Of a stretch of 64,000 bases of DNA, positions 1-42,555 are shown one piece after another. The notes under the pieces were generated by a model. It had not been told where the DNA came from. It saw only the letters and a program-made list of their open reading frames with translations, and did no database searches. A program made the position numbers and the translations under genes. The DNA comes from Lobulomyces angularis. Taxonomy: Eukaryota; Chytridiomycota; Chytridiomycetes; Lobulomycetales; Lobulomycetaceae. The first letter of the stretch is position 1. Every line of letters starts with the position of its first letter. The stretch covers positions 184,601-248,600 of the forward strand of contig JADHYX010000001.1 in the NCBI GenBank assembly GCA_027604685.1, in the 5' to 3' direction.

Positions 1-3000
1 TCGATTTAAATGAAGTAAGATACATGTTCGTTTTACACAATTTAACTTTTTAACTAGGGACAAAGAAAATTTCTTGCAACGAAACTTATTAGGCTTTTGA
101 AATTAGTGGAACTTGAGGACGTTCCGACTTTAGCTTACCAAATATTGCTACTATCAAAAAAAGGCAACAAAAGTGCCATTTTACTAGGTATTAGCAAGTT
201 CTTCGAAAATGAAGCAAAGACAGATTCTCAGCAGTATAAAAATTTGCCACTGTGAATCTAATTTTTGTGAAATATTCGGTATTAGGTCAATTTTGAAGTC
301 GCAAGGAATAGTTTTAACTCATATAACTTTCGCTATTAAACAAGACTTTGAATTAGGAAATGAATTTTTGAAAATCTGCAAAAAGGAAACTTTGTCTACT
401 TTCAAATTATCTTTGTTGTTGTCAATGGCAACTATTTATAGATTTGAATATGCAGTAAGAATAATAAATTTACGATTATCATTTCAATATTGACTATTAG
501 CATTAGGTTTTTGAATATTTGAAAAGCTTTGTTTTCGTTGGATTTTGTGATGAACAAAGAAAACTTAAAATACCTTGGATACGAAAACATAAGAATTTAG
601 TTTATGAATCCTTAGAAGATATATTAAGTGCTGTAATTGTGCAAAGTAAAATTGGCTGGGAACAGTTGACACAAGTATTTATGCTCATAAAATTTTTTTC
701 AATAATCAATTGCATCAAGTCCATTGTCCACCTTGGCTTCATTTTGCTCGATTCTGGAAAGCAAGTAGCTGGAAGAATTATAGGTGAGATATTATTTGAT
801 GTATATCTTCAATTAGTTTAGATACTTCGCGAGAGGATGACCCAACTGAGTTAACTCAAAATGTTGGAATTAGAGCTTTACGAGTAACTTTCAATAATCA
901 TAAGTTCATTCAACCAATCATTATTGAGCAAGTTCTAGCGAGAATTGAAAGTAAAACTGTCGGAGCAGCGAAAGGTTGAAAAAAACTCAATATCAGTATA
1001 CTTTGAATTAATTTATTTGTTTGATTGATAGCCTTGGAACTACTTGAAATTTTTTCTAACACTGCTGATTTTGGAAAGCATATTAAACGGGTTTGTTGAT
1101 TTATAAACTGTAGTTAACTTTATCATTAAGATTAAAGAAACCACAAACTTTATAGCGGATATCGGTTTTAAGTCTGCCAAACATTTTATTCGAATTTGTA
1201 TTCCAATCTTTTTTGCCGACGAATCATTTAAACAATCTTTTTTGATAATATTAAGAAAAGGGATACATTCAAGGGAGATAAAAAATAGGTGAGCAAAAAA
1301 ATAGCAATTTACTTAACGAACGAAAAAAGGCAAATTGCCTTAGCTGGTTACTTGGAGTTACTCTCTTCAAGAAATTATCTGCGTCCGACAAATTCACAAT
1401 TCTTAAACAGAGTTGGTAGTTTTAGTTCAGAAATATTGGATATTCTGAAAAATTGTTTCAATGATCAGTGTGTAGTTAAAAAAGAACTTTATGGCGGATT
1501 AGCAGAAGCAGCCTTAGTGCGTCCCCCCTTAGCAGAATACGTTTTAAATATTATCTTTCCGTATGTATGTACTTGTCAAACAATTTTAAAAATTTATTGA
1601 GAATTAGTTTTTAACTTATATTGGTGACAATGATTTAATTAAAGTTGACGCTTGCTTGACAAATACTAATGGAGGCGAGCCGAAAATTCATGGTTATTTA
1701 ATAAAAACAGAGGTTTATGTTAAATCTTTTTATAAATACAGAACCAATGTATCATGCGCTAAAGTGTATATGTGACTGTTTGCTGATGGTTAAACATAGC
1801 GATTCTGAAATTTTGATTAATTATAGAGAGAGGCTGGATTCTGTAAGTTGGCAACCTCCCATTGAGAAATAATTCATTCTAAAAAAGATTATTGCCAAAC
1901 ACTGTAATGCATCCATTAATGACTTTGAACTGGATAAAGATGGAGATTATAGCAGTAGTGGGTATGATATTTTGATTAAAAGGAATAATTCGCTTAACCA
2001 TAATCAGAAATATTGGAAAAAGAAATCAATATAGGTATAAAATTTAAGTATTCAATATTAATATGATATAAAGAGTCATAGTATTAATAGGGATCTACAT
2101 TGTTTTTATGGAGTACTCATTCAAAAAAAGTGAAATTTTGATTTTAGGAAAAAAAGTGAATTACGAAATATTTAGTGCTGCCTATCATAAGATGCTTGCA
2201 TTGGAAAAATTGGTAAAAGAGAAGGAAAAAATTTCTGGTTTTAGCAACTCTTTTAAAAAATTTGACTTTGAAACCTGCTTACAATTCATCGAACAAGTTT
2301 TTGGCGCTGACCAAGTTGTTGAAGAATTAGCTGAAGAGCTCATTTGCAGATTTGTAAGCTCTAGTTTACTGGAAAGTTTACAACTGGTATTATTCTTTTA
2401 CAGTTTTTTTAATACTCTTAGACGATAGCTAGCAATAAACCAATTGCAAACTTAAATCCTTACATAAAACTTGGCACATTACTTTATTCCAAATTTATTG
2501 AGGCTGCAAGAGAAAATGGTTTATCAACAACACAGATTGGAAAAAAGGAAGGAAAGGTATATGAAATAAATATGATTCTTACAATTAAATTGTTTTAGAA
2601 AAGATCGAGTTGGAGTATGTTGATTGAAAGTTTTTCTTTAATATTTTCCATTATTTGTTTAAATAACAAAATTGCATCCTTAATTCCAATTTTTTCATTT
2701 GTTCCTGACGCAGAGGATAGTTTAGAAGAATTGGCTGCTAAAGAAATTTCTCTTCTACTTCAGGTTGCTATTTTTCTTTTTTTTTTAAATATAAAAAGGT
2801 TTTTCTTATAATCTAGAACCATATTGGTAAAATTGTTTTCGAAAAGCTGAAATTTTATTTTGCTTTGTTTAGAGCAATTTTGTGATGCAAAAACTTATAG
2901 AGAAGCAGGGTTTTTGATTGATTGTATTCAAAATATTTCCAATGTAGTAGACGATCAAGAAATTTGCAAGTTGATGCAAAATTGGCTAATAGATTTTTTA

Positions 3001-4231
3001 AAAAAAAGGGACATTAAGGATCTAGGGCTTGCGAAAAAATCAGTACAACTTTTAATTGTTTTAGAAAATGGTAATCTCAATTACGAATTGGTAAATATTG
3101 CCCTTATGAAGATTCAGATTGTTTAATGTAAATTTCAGTTTCACGAAATAACTAACAAAATCGCATATTGCTGTGGGAGCGTAATAGAAAATACTGAAAT
3201 GGAGAATATTGAAGACTTTTTGATGATTAATGAGGAAACGTATTGTTTTATGAATATTTTCTTATACTTAAGTAAATAGAGCAGGAGATGTATCTAAAGT
3301 AGTGCTAAACTCAATTATATATCTTCTGGATGACATCGAATGGTGTATTATGCAAATCTCCAAATCCCGCAAAGCAAAAGATAGTACAAATTACTTCTTT
3401 CAGCAATTTTTTTTACTCTTCAATGTTTTATTTAGACCGCTTTGTTTGGGACGAATTTGAAGCAATAATCTGCAAGCATTTAGAACCAGTGATAAATGTA
3501 ATGAGTGATTTTGAAGGGTATGGTGTTATAGTGTTGATATTGAACTATTTATTTTCTAGAATTGTTTTTGATGGGTTTGTCTTTGAATTGAGAATGAAAG
3601 CAATCGATAAATGCTTCAAAGTACTATCAAACTTAGTTAAGCAGGTATATTGCAAACTTTATTTCTTACCTTTCTCAGAAAATTTTGTCACCGGAAACAA
3701 TAACAAACAGGTTTGAATCTACTATCGCATGTTGTTCTAGATTGACTCAAAACCTTTATACACTGTAAGAATACGCTTATTTTGACACTAAAACTTTTAA
3801 GTCTTCCGCATGGAAATGATATCGAAGAAACTGAAGATTTGGAAAAAAAAATGAAATTAGGAGGAAAAAAAAGAAAAATTAAGGATGCCCAATTAAAAGC
3901 AACAAAGGAAAGCAAATTTGTCCCTAAAATTGTCTTTTTAGTGGAAAATTTTGAAAGGCACCTAATTCAATTATCTACAAAATCTAAAGTAAACTTAACC
4001 AGATATATTAAAGTATGCTTTATCTTATTGGCAAATAGAATAACTAATTCAAATTGTTTTTATAAGAGATCCACAGCAAGAGACTTTAGAATTCGGCTGG
4101 ATAGAATTGAAGAAAATGAGGATGACGAAGTTAAGGTGGGTATTACTCAATTAAATTTCAAGATTTTAATTCAGTTTGGTAGGTTCAAGAAACAGAGAAA
4201 GAAAATCTTTCTTCCATTAATGAAAACGTAA
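1..4231 (+). CDS. FANCI: FANCI, Fanconi anemia group I protein (5' end outside window)
   Basis: FANCI partners FANCD2 in the clamp that is monoubiquitinated on DNA during interstrand crosslink repair. The exons follow the human protein in order: VYQLL-like helix region (about 120-230), THITFAIKQDFELGNEF (about 300), HLGFILLDS (about 730), LRKGIHSREIKN (1250-1286), IALAGYLELL (1334), KKELYGGLAEAALV (1480), and a C-terminal stretch FLVENFERHLIQLSTKSKVN followed by ARDFRIR (3950-4100). In-frame stops between blocks fall in short introns. The N-terminal ~200 residues lie before base 1. The C-terminus is basic, as in human FANCI; a spliced last exon could move the stop to about 4249. The residue matching human K523 is Gln (codon 1331-1333), and the S/TQ cluster after it is largely absent. 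Family assignment is firm; exon borders are by eye. Confidence 0.93.
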
Positions 4232-8423: not shown

Positions 8424-10739
8424 ATGATTAAAAGAAACAAAAAAGAAACTAACAGTACAATTGATATAAAGGATACTTATGACTCAAAGAATTTATCTCG
8501 GATCAACCTAAGCAAAAGCTTTTTTCAAAAGCAGCACTTATTTCTGGTGAATACTAAAACCACTTGTTACATTATTTAACCATTTTTATTAACAAACTTA
8601 ACTTCACCAAAAAAAAAATATTTTTAGATTTTAAGTGCTGCTTTTTTTATCTATTTTGCATTTTCATATTACCTTGCTTTAAAATCAAAAAATTATTTTG
8701 TTATAAAAAATGCTAAAGTTTATACAATGAACAAGAAGAACTCCTTAATTTCTACCTTTGTTGTGAAGGATGATAAATTTATTATAGACACTGACGACTT
8801 TAACGAAAACTTAAAAAATCATCCAAATGCTGAGGTCATTGACGCAAAAAATAAATTGATTACACCAGGTATAAACTAAATCTTTTTTGCAGTAAAATTT
8901 AATCATTTTAACAGGACTAATTGATTCCCACGGCGTAGTTAATTAAATGCTTTAATATATAATTTACATTTCCTTTTTTTAATGACTAATAGCATAGTCT
9001 TTTCCTTGGAGAACAGCTTTTAAAGTGTAACTTAAAAGGATCCAAGTCAGTTTTTGAAATCAGATCAAAACTACTTGTTCATTTACAGCAAGAAAAACTA
9101 AATAAAAATCAATGGATTTATGGCATTGGATGGGACCAAACTTTGTGGTCAACAGAATTTCCAACCTTTCATGACTTAGAATCGGAATTATTGTCACAGT
9201 TTCCGATAATATTGACTAGAATTGACTATCATTGTTACTGGTTAAATAGGAAAGCTATTGAATTTGTAAAGCCTTATTTACCTACTGATCTTAAGGTAGA
9301 AGGGGGAGAGATACTTCTGGTAAATGGCAATATTTCTGGTATTTTTCTTGATAATGCTATGTCATTTGTTGGTTAGTAAATTTTGAAAGTAAAATTATTA
9401 ATATTTTAAGATCTGGCAAAACCGTTAATTACAGAAGCGGAAATTCTCAAAGCATTTAAATTGGCGAATGATGAGCTATTAAGATATGGGGTAACATCGA
9501 TGCATGATGCTGGACTACGTCCGAGTGAGATTAATATATTAAAAAAGTAATTTTTATTTGATTTGTTTTTTTTTTTTTTTTTAATTAATCATTTGAATGA
9601 AGGGCAGTGGATCTAAAATATTTTAAAGTCAAAAACTATGTCATGATTAATTGCTTCGATATGCTTAAACTATGCGATGAAGAGGTGGATAAGGATGTTT
9701 TGTACTTTACAAATAACAATAATATTTACAAAAATTTGATTTCAGTAAGAAGCGTAAAATTGTTTTTAGATGGTGCACTTGGAAGTTGGGGGGCTAAATT
9801 ATTAGCACCATATTCCGGTAAATATAAGTTGTCTATCACAGACAAAATGATTCAATTAATGTTTTTGAAAGATGATACCAGCAAAAATGGCTTTTTAAGA
9901 ATTCCAGAAAAAGAGCTGCCAGATATCGTTCGCAAATGGTCGTTGAAAGGTTATCAAGTGAACATTCATGCAATTGGTACTTAAATTTGCTTTCTTTAAC
10001 GTTAAACTTTTAAAATTTTATACGTAGGTGACGAAGCAAACAAAATTGCCTTAGATGCCATGGAACAATCCTACATGTCAGATAATTTTAAGAATGACAA
10101 ACGGTTTAGAATTGAGCATGCTCAAATATTGGTAATTTCTACTTCACCGTTGATTAAAATTGACCTACATCTTTTTAGCGTTTAACAGATATAGGCAGAT
10201 TTAAAAATATGAGCATCATTGCCTCAATGCAGCCAACTCATGCTACTTCTGATATGAAATATGCAGAAAAACGATTAGGTCCACAAAGAATTCTTGGGGC
10301 ATATGCATGGAAAACTTTAATTAATGCAGGTGTGACCTTAGCTTTATCAAGTGACTTCCCAGTTGAGCCAGTAAACCCACTGCAAGGCATTTACAGCGCT
10401 GTTACAAGAAAGGATAAATTTGGAGATTCTGTATCAATCAAATTCTTGTCTAAAATTTATTAATTGTATTTTTTGTATTGTTTTAAGCCTCACGGAAAAA
10501 ATGGTTGGTATCCTAATGAAAAATTAAGCATAACAGAAAGTTTAAAGGGATTTACCATCAATGGTGCATTTTCTTCATTTCAAGAAAACTTGGTTGGGAG
10601 TATAGAGAATGGTAAATTTGCGGATTTTGTTATCTTTGATAAAGATTTTATCAATTATGAAGGGGAACTAGATATATTGAAATCAAAAGTACTATCTACA
10701 GTTGTTAATGGAGAGTTGGTGTTTGGAAGCTTTCCTTAA
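8424..10739 (+). CDS. YtcJ-like amidohydrolase with N-terminal membrane anchor
   Basis: Metal-dependent hydrolase of the amidohydrolase family 3 (YtcJ/LAF3 type); substrate unknown. A short basic N-terminus (MIKRNKKETNSTIDIK) is spliced at about 8550 to a hydrophobic segment (ILSAAFFIYFAFSYYLAL), predicting a signal anchor. Then come VIKNAKVYTM, ITPGLIDSHG-H split by an intron (metal HxH), YGIGWDQTLW, YGVTSMHDAGL, VKLFLDGALGSWGA, VNIHAIGDEAN, FRIEHAQIL, TLALSSDFPVEPVNPLQGIY and the C-terminal ENGKFADFVIFDKD. All expected metal-site blocks are present and in order, about 570 aa. An in-frame ATG at 8361 would overlap the GCP4 start, so 8424 is preferred. Stop is at 10737-10739. Confidence 0.9.
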
Positions 10740-10811
10740 ATTTTTTATTCCAAAAATTGATAGTTGCATTTCACCCACAAAAATTTTAGATATTTTATTA
10801 GAGAATCAGTA

Positions 10812-10837
10812 GTGCTTGGGCATTATCTTTTTGAACA
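10812..10837 (+). repeat. Terminal inverted repeat, Fanzor 3' side
   Basis: GTGCTTGGGCATTATC followed by TTTTTGAACA; the reverse complement occurs at 12770-12795 with one mismatch. Preceded by TA at 10810-10811. Confidence 0.88.
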
Positions 10838-10922
10838 ATAATATTCAAAAAAATAACACAACAAACACCAACATATATTTAAATATAAACATAGTGAAAA
10901 CTATGTTGAAAAACTATCTATA

Positions 10923-12699
10923 TTATGTACAAAGATATTTTGGTCTGCAACCATCTATTATATAACTTTCCACCACCGATCTTATATTCATGGTTGCAAC
11001 ATCATCTCTGTTCCATAATCTTTTTTTTCCATTAGGCAGTTGACAAATTTCACTTTTGCAGTGTACTTTTTCAATTTTTTTAATCCAAGGTCTAGGAGAT
11101 TCTCTATATTTAAATGTCACTAATGATCTTTTTTTACATACTGGGCAAATTGAAGATGTCAAAAATTCATTACATAAAAATACATCAAAACCACTTTCTT
11201 AAACATTTCTCGAAATCCCTTACCTTTTGTTGGAACTTGATGCTTCATGCTTGTTTTTGATCAATCCCCAATAATAATTGTTGTATTTTTTTCTTCTCCA
11301 AACGTTTTTTTTACATTTTTTATAAATTTACTTTCTGATTTTTGAGTATTGATAAAGGTCTTTAATTTAAATTTCCTGAAAATTAATTGCTTATAAAATT
11401 CTACACTATGGTAAAACTTAATAAAAAATCTTCCATGTGGTCATTCCATTTTGTTTTATCCAATGTTTTTTTTGTTAATTCATAATTCACAACTTCTTCA
11501 GTAGCAACTTCATATCTTTCTCGAATTTTTCGATAATGTTTTAACCCACTTTCTTTCCTACGCTGCATTTGAGTGTATCTTAATTTCTTAACATTACCTC
11601 CAAGACAGTACAACAGGTCTCTTTTATTAGGATCAATATAAACTTTATTAAAATGTAAATCTTCGAGGTTATCTTGAAAGTACTCAGATTTTTCTGGTAT
11701 TTTTCTCTTTTTAACTCGTGGTAAACTTTCTTTTTGTTTAGGTTTAGGTGAAGATAGTAAAACACAAATTGAAACACCATCCGTCCTAACCATTCCATTA
11801 TAACTCATATTGTTTCTAGATTTAAAAGCTTTCGCATTAGTTTTGAAAACCGTATCCCATACTGTTTCTTTTAACGATTTAACACTGTTTTCTTTTGTTC
11901 TAGGTAAATTTAAAATGTTTTCCATTAATATTTTTGTGTCAATAATAATATGTCTAGGAATTGATGATGTTGACAATGGAATAAAGTTAAATAATTTCAA
12001 ATCATATTTTTGGTATAATTCACATATTTTGAAATAAGATTCCAAGTATTTTTCTGTTCGTGCAACTATATCGTTAGCCAATCCATTAATATGAATGTCT
12101 GTGGGTAACAAATCTTTTATTTCATTTGCAATTTACAAATCGTACATCTGTGTTATTTCAACATTTTCTTTACCAAAAATGTAATCTTGTACTTTTCTAT
12201 TACGTTTTTGTAAAATTTTAATACTTTAGACATTCCTTTAAATTTCAATTTTTTTATTATCATTGTAGAAGTAAATTTTTTAACTTTTTGAATAAAATGC
12301 TCTTGAACATTAACTAGGTGATTTGTACAAAACATTTTTGAAGCATATATAGCTATTTGTTGAACATTTTTATTTCTTGATTATCGTATGATGTTATTTT
12401 TTTATATTTGAGAATATAAGATAAAAATCGATGTATAACAGACATTCTTTCTTCTTTAATTCTATTACTGATGGTGTGGTTGTTTAGTGAAGAAAAATTA
12501 CTTGGAAATCTTTTTCAGCTATGATATCTTTGTTGGTATGATTGGAATTGAGTATATACCACTTAATAAAATGAGTAGTATGTACAGTTAATCTATTATC
12601 CTTAAAAATCAATGTTTCAATATTTTTCAAATGCGTTTCATCTCCTTTGAAAACTTTACTAAAATTAGTTTTATTTGTTGAATGTTTTTGTTGCATCAT
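10923..12699 (-). pseudogene. Fanzor (eukaryotic TnpB-like RNA-guided nuclease), disrupted
   Basis: Fanzors are eukaryotic relatives of TnpB/Cas12: RNA-guided DNA nucleases carried by transposons. Reading the minus strand: N-terminal helical part with RLTVHTTHFIKWYIL (12.6 kb); SSIPRHIIIDTKILMENI, then VRTDGVSICVLL; RuvC-I block YIDPNKRDLLYC (Asp kept; the usual DPGK Gly is Asn) followed by LRYTQMQRRKESGLKHYRKI; a block resembling GDWSxxxxMKHQVPTKGKG; RuvC-II CNEFLTSS (Glu kept); zinc ribbon ICPVCKKR...VHCKSEIC; RuvC-III WNRDDVATMNIR (Asp kept). It is broken: the Trp of GDWS is a TGA stop (11261-11263), frames shift near 11400, 11200 and 12130, and two more breaks lie in the N-terminal third. 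About 590 codons in all, as for Fanzor1-type proteins. Not active as it stands. Confidence 0.9.
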
Positions 12700-12769
12700 T
12701 TTAAATTTTGAATTTTTTTTTGAATTAATTACTCTTTGTAAAATTTAAATTTTTGGACACAAAAATTTA

Positions 12770-12795
12770 TGTTCAAAAAAATAATGCCCAAGCAC
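12770..12795 (-). repeat. Terminal inverted repeat, Fanzor 5' side
   Basis: On the minus strand it begins GTGCTTGGGCATTATTTTTT, matching 10812-10837 at 25 of 26 positions. Followed by TA at 12796-12797, the presumed target duplication. Confidence 0.88.
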
Positions 12796-12941
12796 TATAC
12801 AAACATAAGAATGATTTGTCGACAAATTAATGAAAGCAAGAAAGTACAAAAAATTATTAATATTATATTTGCTTATTATATACACTAATAACTGCAGCTA
12901 TATACAGCAGAAAATTCAAATATAATTTTCAAACAACTTGC

Positions 12942-13268
12942 TCAATTTCCAACTTGTGCCCAATCAGGGCCATTATGATCACTTAAATCTGAAACCGAAT
13001 TGGCAGCAGGACCTAAACAAATTGCAAAATTTCTTGACTGGCAGCCAATAGAAAAGGCAGAGTTCACACTCAATATTGAAGCGAAGCTGTTAATTGATAA
13101 CATTGAAAATGCTGCGTTGATTGAAAGTAGAGAAATGATGGTGTTTAAAGCTAGCAAACTGAAGATTGTGTTAAAAGAAAAGAATCCGCCATATGAATTA
13201 GTTGATTTCCAACTGTGTCTACTGTTTGATCCAAACCAGCCTCCTGTTCGTTTTGTTCCTCTGTCCAT
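12942..13268 (-). CDS. Small SIN-repeat protein (unidentified)
   Basis: A 108-aa open frame from an ATG at 13268. A basic, Gly/Ser-rich start (MDRGTKRTGGWFGSNSRHSW) leads into a run of hydrophobic repeats of about 11-12 residues: FFSFNTIFSLLAL, NTIISLLSI, NAAFSMLSI, NSFASILSV, NSAFSIGC, closed by CQSRNFAICL. The regular N-x-x-x-S-hydrophobic-S spacing suggests a stacked beta-solenoid or a membrane-associated repeat. I have seen similar SIN/SVNS-repeat proteins but cannot name a function. It lies about 150 bp outside the Fanzor element. A second ATG (13389) opens a short basic frame upstream that could be a first exon, but no clean splice was found. Confidence 0.55.
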   Translation of the reverse strand: MDRGTKRTGGWFGSNSRHSWKSTNSYGGFFSFNTIFSLLALNTIISLLSINAAFSMLSINSFASILSVNSAFSIGCQSRNFAICLGPAANSVSDLSDHNGPDWAQVGN

Positions 13269-13744
13269 TTTTTATTTTTTATTGCTTTTTTGTATTAATT
13301 GATTTGTATTGAAAGTTAAGCATAACAGAAGTAGAAAGTTGTGCTTTTATATCATCATTAAATCTTCTTTTTTTCTTTGCAGTGTCCATGGAGGTGTACC
13401 AAGGACGTTTGAAGAATTTTTGTTTCAAAGAAAAATTCGTTTTTGTAAATTGAGAAATTTTTCGAAGTTTCAAATTTAATGAGTCTAATTATCTGATTAT
13501 AATACAAAAGTAATAAACTATGTATGTACAATATATGTAATTTATATGATTCTATGATAATTCTGATCAGTAATTTTTAAGAAATATTATTAGTTTAATT
13601 AACATACAATTACTATCTACGTTGCATTTCTCTCTTGCCACCTCAAAAAAATTATAACTTCTCAAACAACAAACAGTTTTAAATAAATACGATTTTATTG
13701 AATTATAAATACAAAATATAGTACAAAAATTATACACTAAACTA
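13269..13744. other. Intergenic, small uncertain frame
   Basis: Between the SIN-repeat gene and the permease stop. It holds a minus-strand frame from an ATG at 13387-13389 (MDTAKKKRRFNDDIKAQL), which may be an upstream exon of the SIN-repeat gene. The remainder is AT-rich without recognisable features. Confidence 0.3.
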
Positions 13745-19757: not shown

Positions 19758-19964
19758 TTTTGTTGTGTTTTTTTTTTTGGAAAAGAAAATAATTTTTTTA
19801 TTCATTATTTTGAAATAACCACATAACTTACTATTCTAAACTCTTAAAAATTAATTTTCTAGATAAAAAGTTCTTATAATTTAATAATTAAGTGAGACAA
19901 GGTATTAAAGCTATTGCTTTAAGTGATTTAAGATGAGACAGGTAATTATAATTTCTTTACCCAG

Positions 19965-20090
19965 AAACATCTCGTTTCGCGAAGAGTTCATTCTGTTGTT
20001 CAAGTTTTTTTCTTATTTTCGAATAGATTTTTGATATACTTTCATGCCTTTTTTGCAATAACTCAGCGTAAAATAAAAGTGAGTACTGCA
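19965..20090 (-). other. Orphan coiled-coil open stretch beside the gag relic
   Basis: Minus-strand frame reading YSLLFYAELLQKRHESISKI, then a Lys/Glu/Gln-rich helix and the end ELFAKRDVSG, closed by a possible donor (GG|GTAAAG). It has no partner exon on the other side, where the gag sequence starts. It may be an exon of a host gene cut by the retroelement, or the tail of the element. Function unknown. Confidence 0.25.
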
Positions 20091-21015: not shown

Positions 21016-21164
21016 TGTTATGCTTTTCTTGGATTATTAATATTATAGTCTAAAGTCGTTATAAATCATCTTTATTAATACAAAGTTTAATACCTAAAGT
21101 TGTTAAAAAATAATCTTAAGATTACTGTGTAACGACTTCCTAGTCTTATATACTATAACTAACA
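21016..21164 (-). repeat. 5' LTR of the gag-bearing retroelement (149 bp)
   Basis: On the minus strand it begins TGTTAGTTATAG and ends GCATAACA, giving TGTTA...TAACA inverted ends. It holds a TATA-like TATATAAGAC soon after the start and an AATAAA signal about two thirds along, and is followed by the primer-binding site and gag. Short for an LTR. Its outer end is only about 39 bp from the 5' end of the tRNA-Asn gene. Confidence 0.78.
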
Positions 21165-42392: not shown

Positions 42393-42555
42393 ATCAGTAG
42401 TGGAAAGTTAATGGTTGTAGACCAAAATATCTTTGTAAATAATGTAGATTTTTTTCAGAATAGTTTTCACTATGTTTATATATAAATATATGTTGGTGTT
42501 TGTTGTGCTGTTTTTTTTGAATATTAATTTTCAAAAAGATAATGCCCAAACAGTA
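42393..42555 (+). mobile_element. Truncated second copy of the Fanzor element, 3' end only
   Basis: About 163 bp matching the minus strand of 10810-10985 at roughly 90 percent by eye, with a 9-bp deletion. It covers the last Fanzor codons (GCRPKYLC), the whole 3' non-coding part and the terminal repeat (42528-42553), followed by TA (42554-42555). No left end is present. It abuts the monooxygenase pseudogene on one side and lies about 43 bp upstream of the H2A.Z start codon. Apparent ORFs on both strands here are by-products of the element end. Confidence 0.88.

Follow-up and report, generated by a model that had tools for sequence, protein, structure and literature searches.

Transposons whose only gene encodes a Fanzor1 nuclease are a known kind of element, with examples carrying mariner ends described in 2013 (PMC3627910) and Spu-1, the element of SpuFz1, in 2023 (PMC10432273). 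These reports bear out a preliminary description of the present locus, which had stated that Fanzors were already known as transposon cargo, chytrids included. According to the 2023 report, Spu-1 is an element of about 2 kb in which a single Fanzor1 gene lies between inverted repeats, CA is conserved before the 5′ repeat, an RNA with a guide of 14–15 nt comes from the 3′ repeat, a cleavage screen gave CATA as the TAM of SpuFz1, and short gene-less derivatives occur (PMC10432273). The Tc/mariner elements PUl-4, PUl-1, and PGv-1 are likewise described as Fanzor-only, with mariner-type TIRs and TA duplications, and other elements in the same report carry a transposase together with a Fanzor (PMC3627910). 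In the published Fanzor1 pattern, as outlined in PMC10711439, the omegaRNA arises from the 3′ end and its scaffold includes the TIR and the target-site duplication. The biological role of Fanzor was given as still unknown in the 2023 paper (PMC10432273). From these accounts, we infer that CA alone could not tell a TAM from a transposase preference in S. punctatus.

The window analyzed in this study is a stretch of 64,000 nucleotides from the chytrid Lobulomyces angularis (Lobulomycetales). It carries, at positions 10810..12797 on the minus strand, a 1,988-bp element delimited by its inverted ends and by repeat copies. This copy is dead and belongs to a DNA transposon with Fanzor1 as its only gene, and it is at most non-autonomous. 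The element resembles Spu-1 in size, gene content, and inverted repeats, and its family resembles Spu-1 in the CA before the 5′ repeat of most window-type copies, the RNA predicted from the 3′ repeat, the putative TAM CATA, and the short gene-less derivatives. No transposase was reported between the Spu-1 repeats, whereas the genome studied here contains a transposase element whose ends are of the window type, and a sister clade with another motif at the 5′ end occurs in addition. PUl-4, PUl-1, and PGv-1 share the Fanzor-only content, the type of TIR, and the TA duplications, and differ in host. Both likenesses are drawn from the published descriptions. The preliminary description had supposed that the repeats and the host were new. 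The kind of element is a known one; as far as the literature listings go, what is new comprises the order to which the host belongs, a transposase candidate for ends of the Spu-1 type, and a clade-linked, oriented flank motif.

Since the Fanzor gene reads from right to left, the left end of the element is its RE (the 3′ side of Fanzor) and the right end its LE (the 5′ side). An inverted-repeat search revealed the RE arm at 10810..10845 (plus strand) and the LE arm at 12762..12797 (minus strand), which are 36 nt long and 89% complementary and form the longest pair listed within 10300–13400. TA stands at both extremes (10810..10811 and 12796..12797) and is read as the target-site duplication; across the genome, TA was present at 99 of the 102 ends read with at most three mismatches. 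The 26-bp inverted repeats and TA flanks of the preliminary description were thus recovered as 36-nt arms closed by TA on both sides. That description had also proposed looking elsewhere in the genome for the same ends, for intact Fanzor copies, and for a longer sibling with a DDE transposase. In the genome searched (G000; 20.76 Mb in 533 contigs), the 26-nt end gave 121 matches with at most three mismatches, 100 of which were used, and the reversed pattern gave none, which rules out an accidental repeat. The element DNA matched at least 77 genome stretches (a lower bound, from 40 of 116 candidates scored), and three genomic copies were 90–91% identical to it over nearly the full length. Numerous 26-nt ends lay at the ends of contigs, the pattern that would arise if recent copies, being nearly identical, had escaped assembly. 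The element starts 70 bp after the stop of an amidohydrolase-like gene. When the flanks of the fetched loci were compared, nested copies were seen and no usable empty site was found among the 61 rows listed. Apart from the element, a minus-strand stretch of the window at 19945–20058 resembles a Fanzor segment of the predicted protein P0008 (49% over 41 residues, E=1e-4).

The Fanzor1 pseudogene occupies 10923..12699 on the minus strand, from the first Met (12697–12699) to the stop (10923–10925), and changes frame five times, with two further breaks at in-frame stops; the window copy therefore makes no whole protein and is dead. Single minus-strand pieces matched S. punctatus Fanzor1 (PDB 8gkh) with E=1.7e-27 and 6.6e-9. 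The joined reading of 598 residues, with X at seven breaks, matched 8gkh from residue 5 to residue 594 (E=1.6e-70) and two further Fanzor1 proteins, 9cf0 and 9cer, at 1.4e-43 and 4.8e-8, respectively; the end-to-end match to 8gkh rules out a protein outside the Fanzor clade. Together with the protein searches, in which P0001 (612 residues) scored highest with 51% identity over 99%, these matches place the protein with Fanzor1, in line with the clade placement on which the preliminary description had made its reading depend. The RuvC-I, RuvC-II, and RuvC-III and zinc-ribbon blocks named there were located on the minus strand by alignment and in the joined reading: the RuvC-I aspartate codon at 11632..11634 (VYIDPNKRD, corresponding to D383 of SpuFz1), the RuvC-II glutamate codon at 11166..11168 (CNEFLTSS, E541), the RuvC-III aspartate codon at 11004..11006 (WNRDD, D606), and a zinc ribbon of four cysteines at 11043..11147. 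In the joined reading, the spacings (161 and 11 residues) fit the Fanzor motif D-X(125-275)-[TS][TS]XX-C4 finger-X(5-50)-RD given in PMC3627910, and residue 309 begins TDG, the motif in the WED domain that marks Fanzor1 according to PMC10711439. Pfam matched the window protein only with Cas12f1-like_TNB, below the cut-off (E=0.0024), and NCBIfam gave zero matches, so these two collections alone are nearly blind to it. No stop-free full-length Fanzor was seen among 86 protein matches in the assembly (72 of 351 candidates scored), and the intact copy that had been sought was not among them; some stop-free pieces extend to contig ends.

No transposase query matched the window, in agreement with the preliminary description of a transposon without a transposase of its own. 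A longer sibling of the kind it had proposed was present at G000:C280:11220-13730 (in L040), a 2,511-bp element whose two ends each read AGTGCTTGCGCATTATCTTTTTGAAC, a sequence one base off the C-bearing form and two off the 26-nt query. This element contains HTH_23 (4.4e-7, above the Pfam cut-off) and two DDE_3 segments, which scored 28.5 bits (E=1.6e-6) and 23.2 bits (E=6.7e-5) against a gathering score of 28.6, and its transposase is interrupted by one stop and one frame change. In the joined reading, 44 residues separate what we read as the second D and the E of a putative catalytic triad; the name DD44E together with transposase was not found in the literature searched. A second copy of this type lies on C70. 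With a Clydaea vesicula relative as the query, the genome gave 48 matches, including those on C280 and C70 and many with stops, and no intact transposase was seen among them; a protein search listed 65 relatives, many of them with DDE_3 and HTH domains. On C189 (L069, about 1050-3106), a single, older element of about 2 kb holds remnants of a transposase followed by those of a Fanzor zinc ribbon between ends that match poorly (eight and seven mismatches). Transposase and Fanzor pieces also adjoin on C185, C61, C109, C31, and C137; these neighbors may be nested insertions and were hence not counted.

Shorter elements and open frames were seen beside these siblings. On C19 (L043), an element of 536 bp has kept an LE with ATTA, a portion of the start of Fanzor, and an RE end, and resembles the "ghost" elements of S. 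punctatus. Ends of the same kind also bound C115:54978-55827 (L041), C280:302-1341 (L039), and C170:4752-6159 (L073), elements in which neither a Fanzor nor a transposase catalytic piece was matched; L041 has two ORFs, 101 and 155 aa long, that lack a Pfam match, and its flank resembles window positions 21016-21151 (81%). Beside the C280 transposase, a plus-strand ORF of 158 residues (L040:1008-1481) had no Pfam match above the cut-off.

Folding predicted an omegaRNA scaffold at 10810..10880 on the minus strand, whose 27-bp hairpin spans the entire RE TIR together with the TA; this stretch also matched the RNA model, whose training set contains this copy. The host flank beside the RE, 10794..10809 on the minus strand, is the putative position of the guide. 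When the last 75 nt of the ends were compared with shuffles, z was below −2 in 46 of 54 RE ends, 8 of 44 LE ends, and none of 17 other ends. Among ends with at most five mismatches, the RE ends being those with intact TA, a hairpin duplex of −12 kcal/mol or better was present in 54/59 RE, 1/40 LE, and 0/15 other ends, and the RE hairpin occurs in both Fanzor clades defined below. In an alignment of 38 of the 59 distinct RE ends (the 21 left out being in many cases irregular or short), 90.2% of cells paired, compared with 46–56% when the arms were slid. Covariation was not detected in this alignment, as 232 of 500 column shuffles paired equally well; nor was compensatory change, as 1,211 of 5,000 TIR permutations paired as well as the ends' own TIRs; and RNAalifold gave nine weak pairs without the hairpin. 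Since shuffled columns and permuted TIRs pair alike, the complement of the hairpin is kept by conservation of both arms, without shown covariation. The model also had weak off-target matches, one (E=0.00028) on the strand opposite the hairpin and one (E=0.027) at the LE end, and Rfam gave no match up to E=1 within 10500–13100. On the plus strand of the window, the RE side of the family recurs at 42393..42555 in a second copy, which is truncated at its 5′ end and includes both the hairpin and the TIR (85% identity over 172 positions); it is outside the training set and matched the RNA model at 42484-42555 with E=4.9e-12.

To compare flanks, 130 end matches with at most seven mismatches (128 unique) were read and classed by the adjoining code, N-terminal code reading inward denoting an LE and C-terminal code reading outward an RE; ends without code in reach were classed by nearest-neighbor DNA. 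These rules ignore the flank, and the flanks were already known to us when the rules were applied. Two ends were assigned to clade B manually from their nearest neighbor: the one on C88, which its TIR by itself had placed in A, and the one on C113, which had been unclear. C246 was already B. Clade A denotes the window-type Fanzor and clade B its sister clade; in a 29-row tree of N-terminal pieces, the branch separating A from B was supported at 100/98 and A itself at 81/93, and SpuFz1 sat on a long, unsure branch. The classes comprised 22 clade A LE, 22 clade B LE, 2 unclear LE, 65 RE, and 17 other ends. The last class covers transposase elements and empty ones, along with about three matches that probably arose by chance; all rows were kept.

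The two clades differed in the motif at the LE. CATA was present at 16 of the 22 clade A LE ends, with TATA at two (the window copy and C258) and no intact TA at four, so the window copy's own LE flank departs from the family motif. The 22 clade B LE ends had ATTA in 13 cases, TATA in three, ACTA in two, AATA in two, CTTA in one, and CATA in one; with 9/22 not ATTA, the clade B motif is loose. CATA and ATTA were found at 3/65 and 5/65 RE flanks and at 0/17 and 2/17 other ends, respectively, and in the window 3.7% of TA dinucleotides are preceded by CA and 12.6% by AT. CATA at the A-LE ends exceeded that at RE (Fisher p=4.7e-10), B-LE (1/22; p=4.9e-6), and other ends (p=2.1e-6), and ATTA at the B-LE ends exceeded that at RE (p=2.3e-6) and was seen at 0/22 A-LE ends. 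CATA was a prior candidate from SpuFz1 and was spotted in the first ends; ATTA was chosen from the data, and its p-values are post hoc. Without the hand assignments, CATA stood at 16/23 A and 1/20 B ends and ATTA at 1/23 A and 11/20 B ends (p 1.2e-9 to 3.5e-4). When the comparison was confined to ends classed by code, CATA stood at 13/19 A, 1/18 B, and 2/43 RE ends and ATTA at 0/19 A, 9/18 B, and 4/43 RE ends (p 2.7e-7 to 1.0e-3). Ends fetched once the idea stood gave CATA at 5/7 A, 0/8 B, and 1/27 RE and ATTA at 1/7 A, 6/8 B, and 2/27 RE. The outer flanks are not mutual copies, as at most 12/18 positions were alike within the LE sets. We read the LE flank motif as a putative footprint of the nuclease's TAM. 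In searches of the Fanzor literature (transposon, TAM, transposase, retention, chytrid), a clade-specific flank motif appeared in no title among the matches listed, which does not prove its absence.

The residues of SpuFz1 reported to touch TAM bases include Q129 and R291. The position of Q129 was occupied by Q in 5/5 A-side rows (P0001 and P0002 included) and by D or N in 6/6 B rows, and D was also found in P0004 and P0006. At the position of R291, the window protein and P0002 have R, P0001 has V, and the two B rows reaching it have G or S. N133, another TAM contact of SpuFz1, is kept in neither clade, and in the region of R96 an R lies one place earlier in 3/4 A rows reaching it. Different Fanzor1 proteins are reported to use non-conserved residues for different TAMs (Xu 2024, PMC11423790). 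The residue pattern fits a change of specificity without proving one.

These observations could be joined as follows. A sibling DDE_3 transposase would bind the common TIRs and move the Fanzor elements in trans into TA. The RE end would be transcribed as an omegaRNA, with TIR and TA duplication forming the hairpin scaffold and the host flank beyond the RE serving as the guide. If the RE flank is the guide and the TA a duplication, the TAM would lie at the LE flank plus TA; because these would supply the TAM, an RNA-loaded Fanzor may recognize the re-joined empty site after excision, or an element-free allele. For the window clade, the TAM would be CATA; that of the sister clade may be ATTA-like. 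Repair templated by an occupied copy would then restore the element, and copies at TAM-bearing sites would be kept. We consider it probable that the combination of a dead Fanzor1-only element, a DDE_3 transposase acting in trans, an omegaRNA at the RE, and TAM-guided retention describes this family. With slightly less than even confidence, we propose further that each of the two clades keeps copies mostly at sites with its own TAM on the correct side, that RNA-guided cutting of empty sites maintains the element, and that the TAM switched from CATA to ATTA-like while the ends stayed unchanged. The cargo reading of the preliminary description is supported as far as it goes; the term may undersell the nuclease, as the flank and hairpin data suggest action on its own insertion sites.

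The LE motifs could instead reflect the target sites that the transposase complex prefers, with the difference between LE and RE giving them their orientation and Fanzor as a passenger. This explanation is favored by TnpB systems, where TAM and transposase target are the same. A mild excess of T at −5 in the RE ends (38/65) also suggests that the transposase may have some preference, and part of the T at −5 in clade B (21/22 LE ends) may be owed to it. The GCGC-type TIR, that of the transposase element, points the same way: its clade B LE flanks (ATTA 2/5, AATA 2, TATA 1) are A/T-rich, much like the six ends of this type without Fanzor (TATA 3, AATA 1, AGTA 1, GTTA 1). However, where the 26-nt TIR was of the identical GGGC type, the LE motif still differed by clade, with CATA at 2/2 nearest-neighbor-classed A ends and ATTA at three and ACTA at one of four B ends, in small numbers, and the non-Fanzor ends showed no CATA at all, these ends being few and including the probable chance matches. 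We regard transposase preference as an unlikely source of the motifs.

The hairpin might be a leftover of a palindromic transposon end with no relation to an omegaRNA, since its arms copy the TIR, so an origin in DNA by inverted duplication is conceivable, and covariation is absent. Its restriction to one end in both clades, together with a scaffold that holds TIR and duplication as in the published pattern, argues against such an origin, which we judge quite improbable. That the element is only cargo, its Fanzor, hairpin, and flank motif sharing no function, would agree with the lack of both covariation and a complete open Fanzor frame in the assembled copies; yet the hairpin is RE-specific and the motif LE- and clade-specific, and both match the S. 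punctatus reports; we consider this explanation very improbable. On the function of Fanzor within transposons, the L. angularis genome supplies a transposase candidate, numerous independent insertions, and two clades of Fanzor that have nearly equal ends and differ in the motif beside them, which helps in part to tell recognition by the nuclease apart from target choice by the transposase. The predicted TAMs are CATA and an ATTA-like motif; candidate residues for reading them can be named, and an RNA is predicted from one of the two ends.

Predicted proteins of Clydaea vesicula and L. angularis (P0002, P0008, P0013, P0072, and P0085) belong to the same families and are mostly deposited as hypothetical, and the Clydaea vesicula proteins match the genome nearly as well as the L. 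angularis ones, among them a model that joins Fanzor to ribosomal protein L3 at one locus. A distinct, P0013-type Fanzor group was seen at G000:C255:29740-31134 (L087), on C130 and C33 (L088 and L089), on C8, C122, and C518, and elsewhere, with an open frame of 333 residues on C255 and pieces 80–97% alike at the other places; the L. angularis protein P0013 itself matched C255 at 96–98% over three pieces. The alignment of P0085 of L. angularis to C288 shows two mismatches, both located at a single exon junction, and apart from these nothing but intron gaps. Two deposited models join such genes to host genes, P0047 (G000:C14:38491-41612) fusing a Fanzor to ribosomal protein L3 and P0104 (C288) fusing a transposase to a mitochondrial carrier, and both fusions are probably annotation errors. 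In P0009 of Clydaea vesicula, PF08706, which we take to be the D5-type primase domain, runs on into a C-terminal part of Fanzor; this protein may represent a virus-like capture, or else its gene model may be chimeric.
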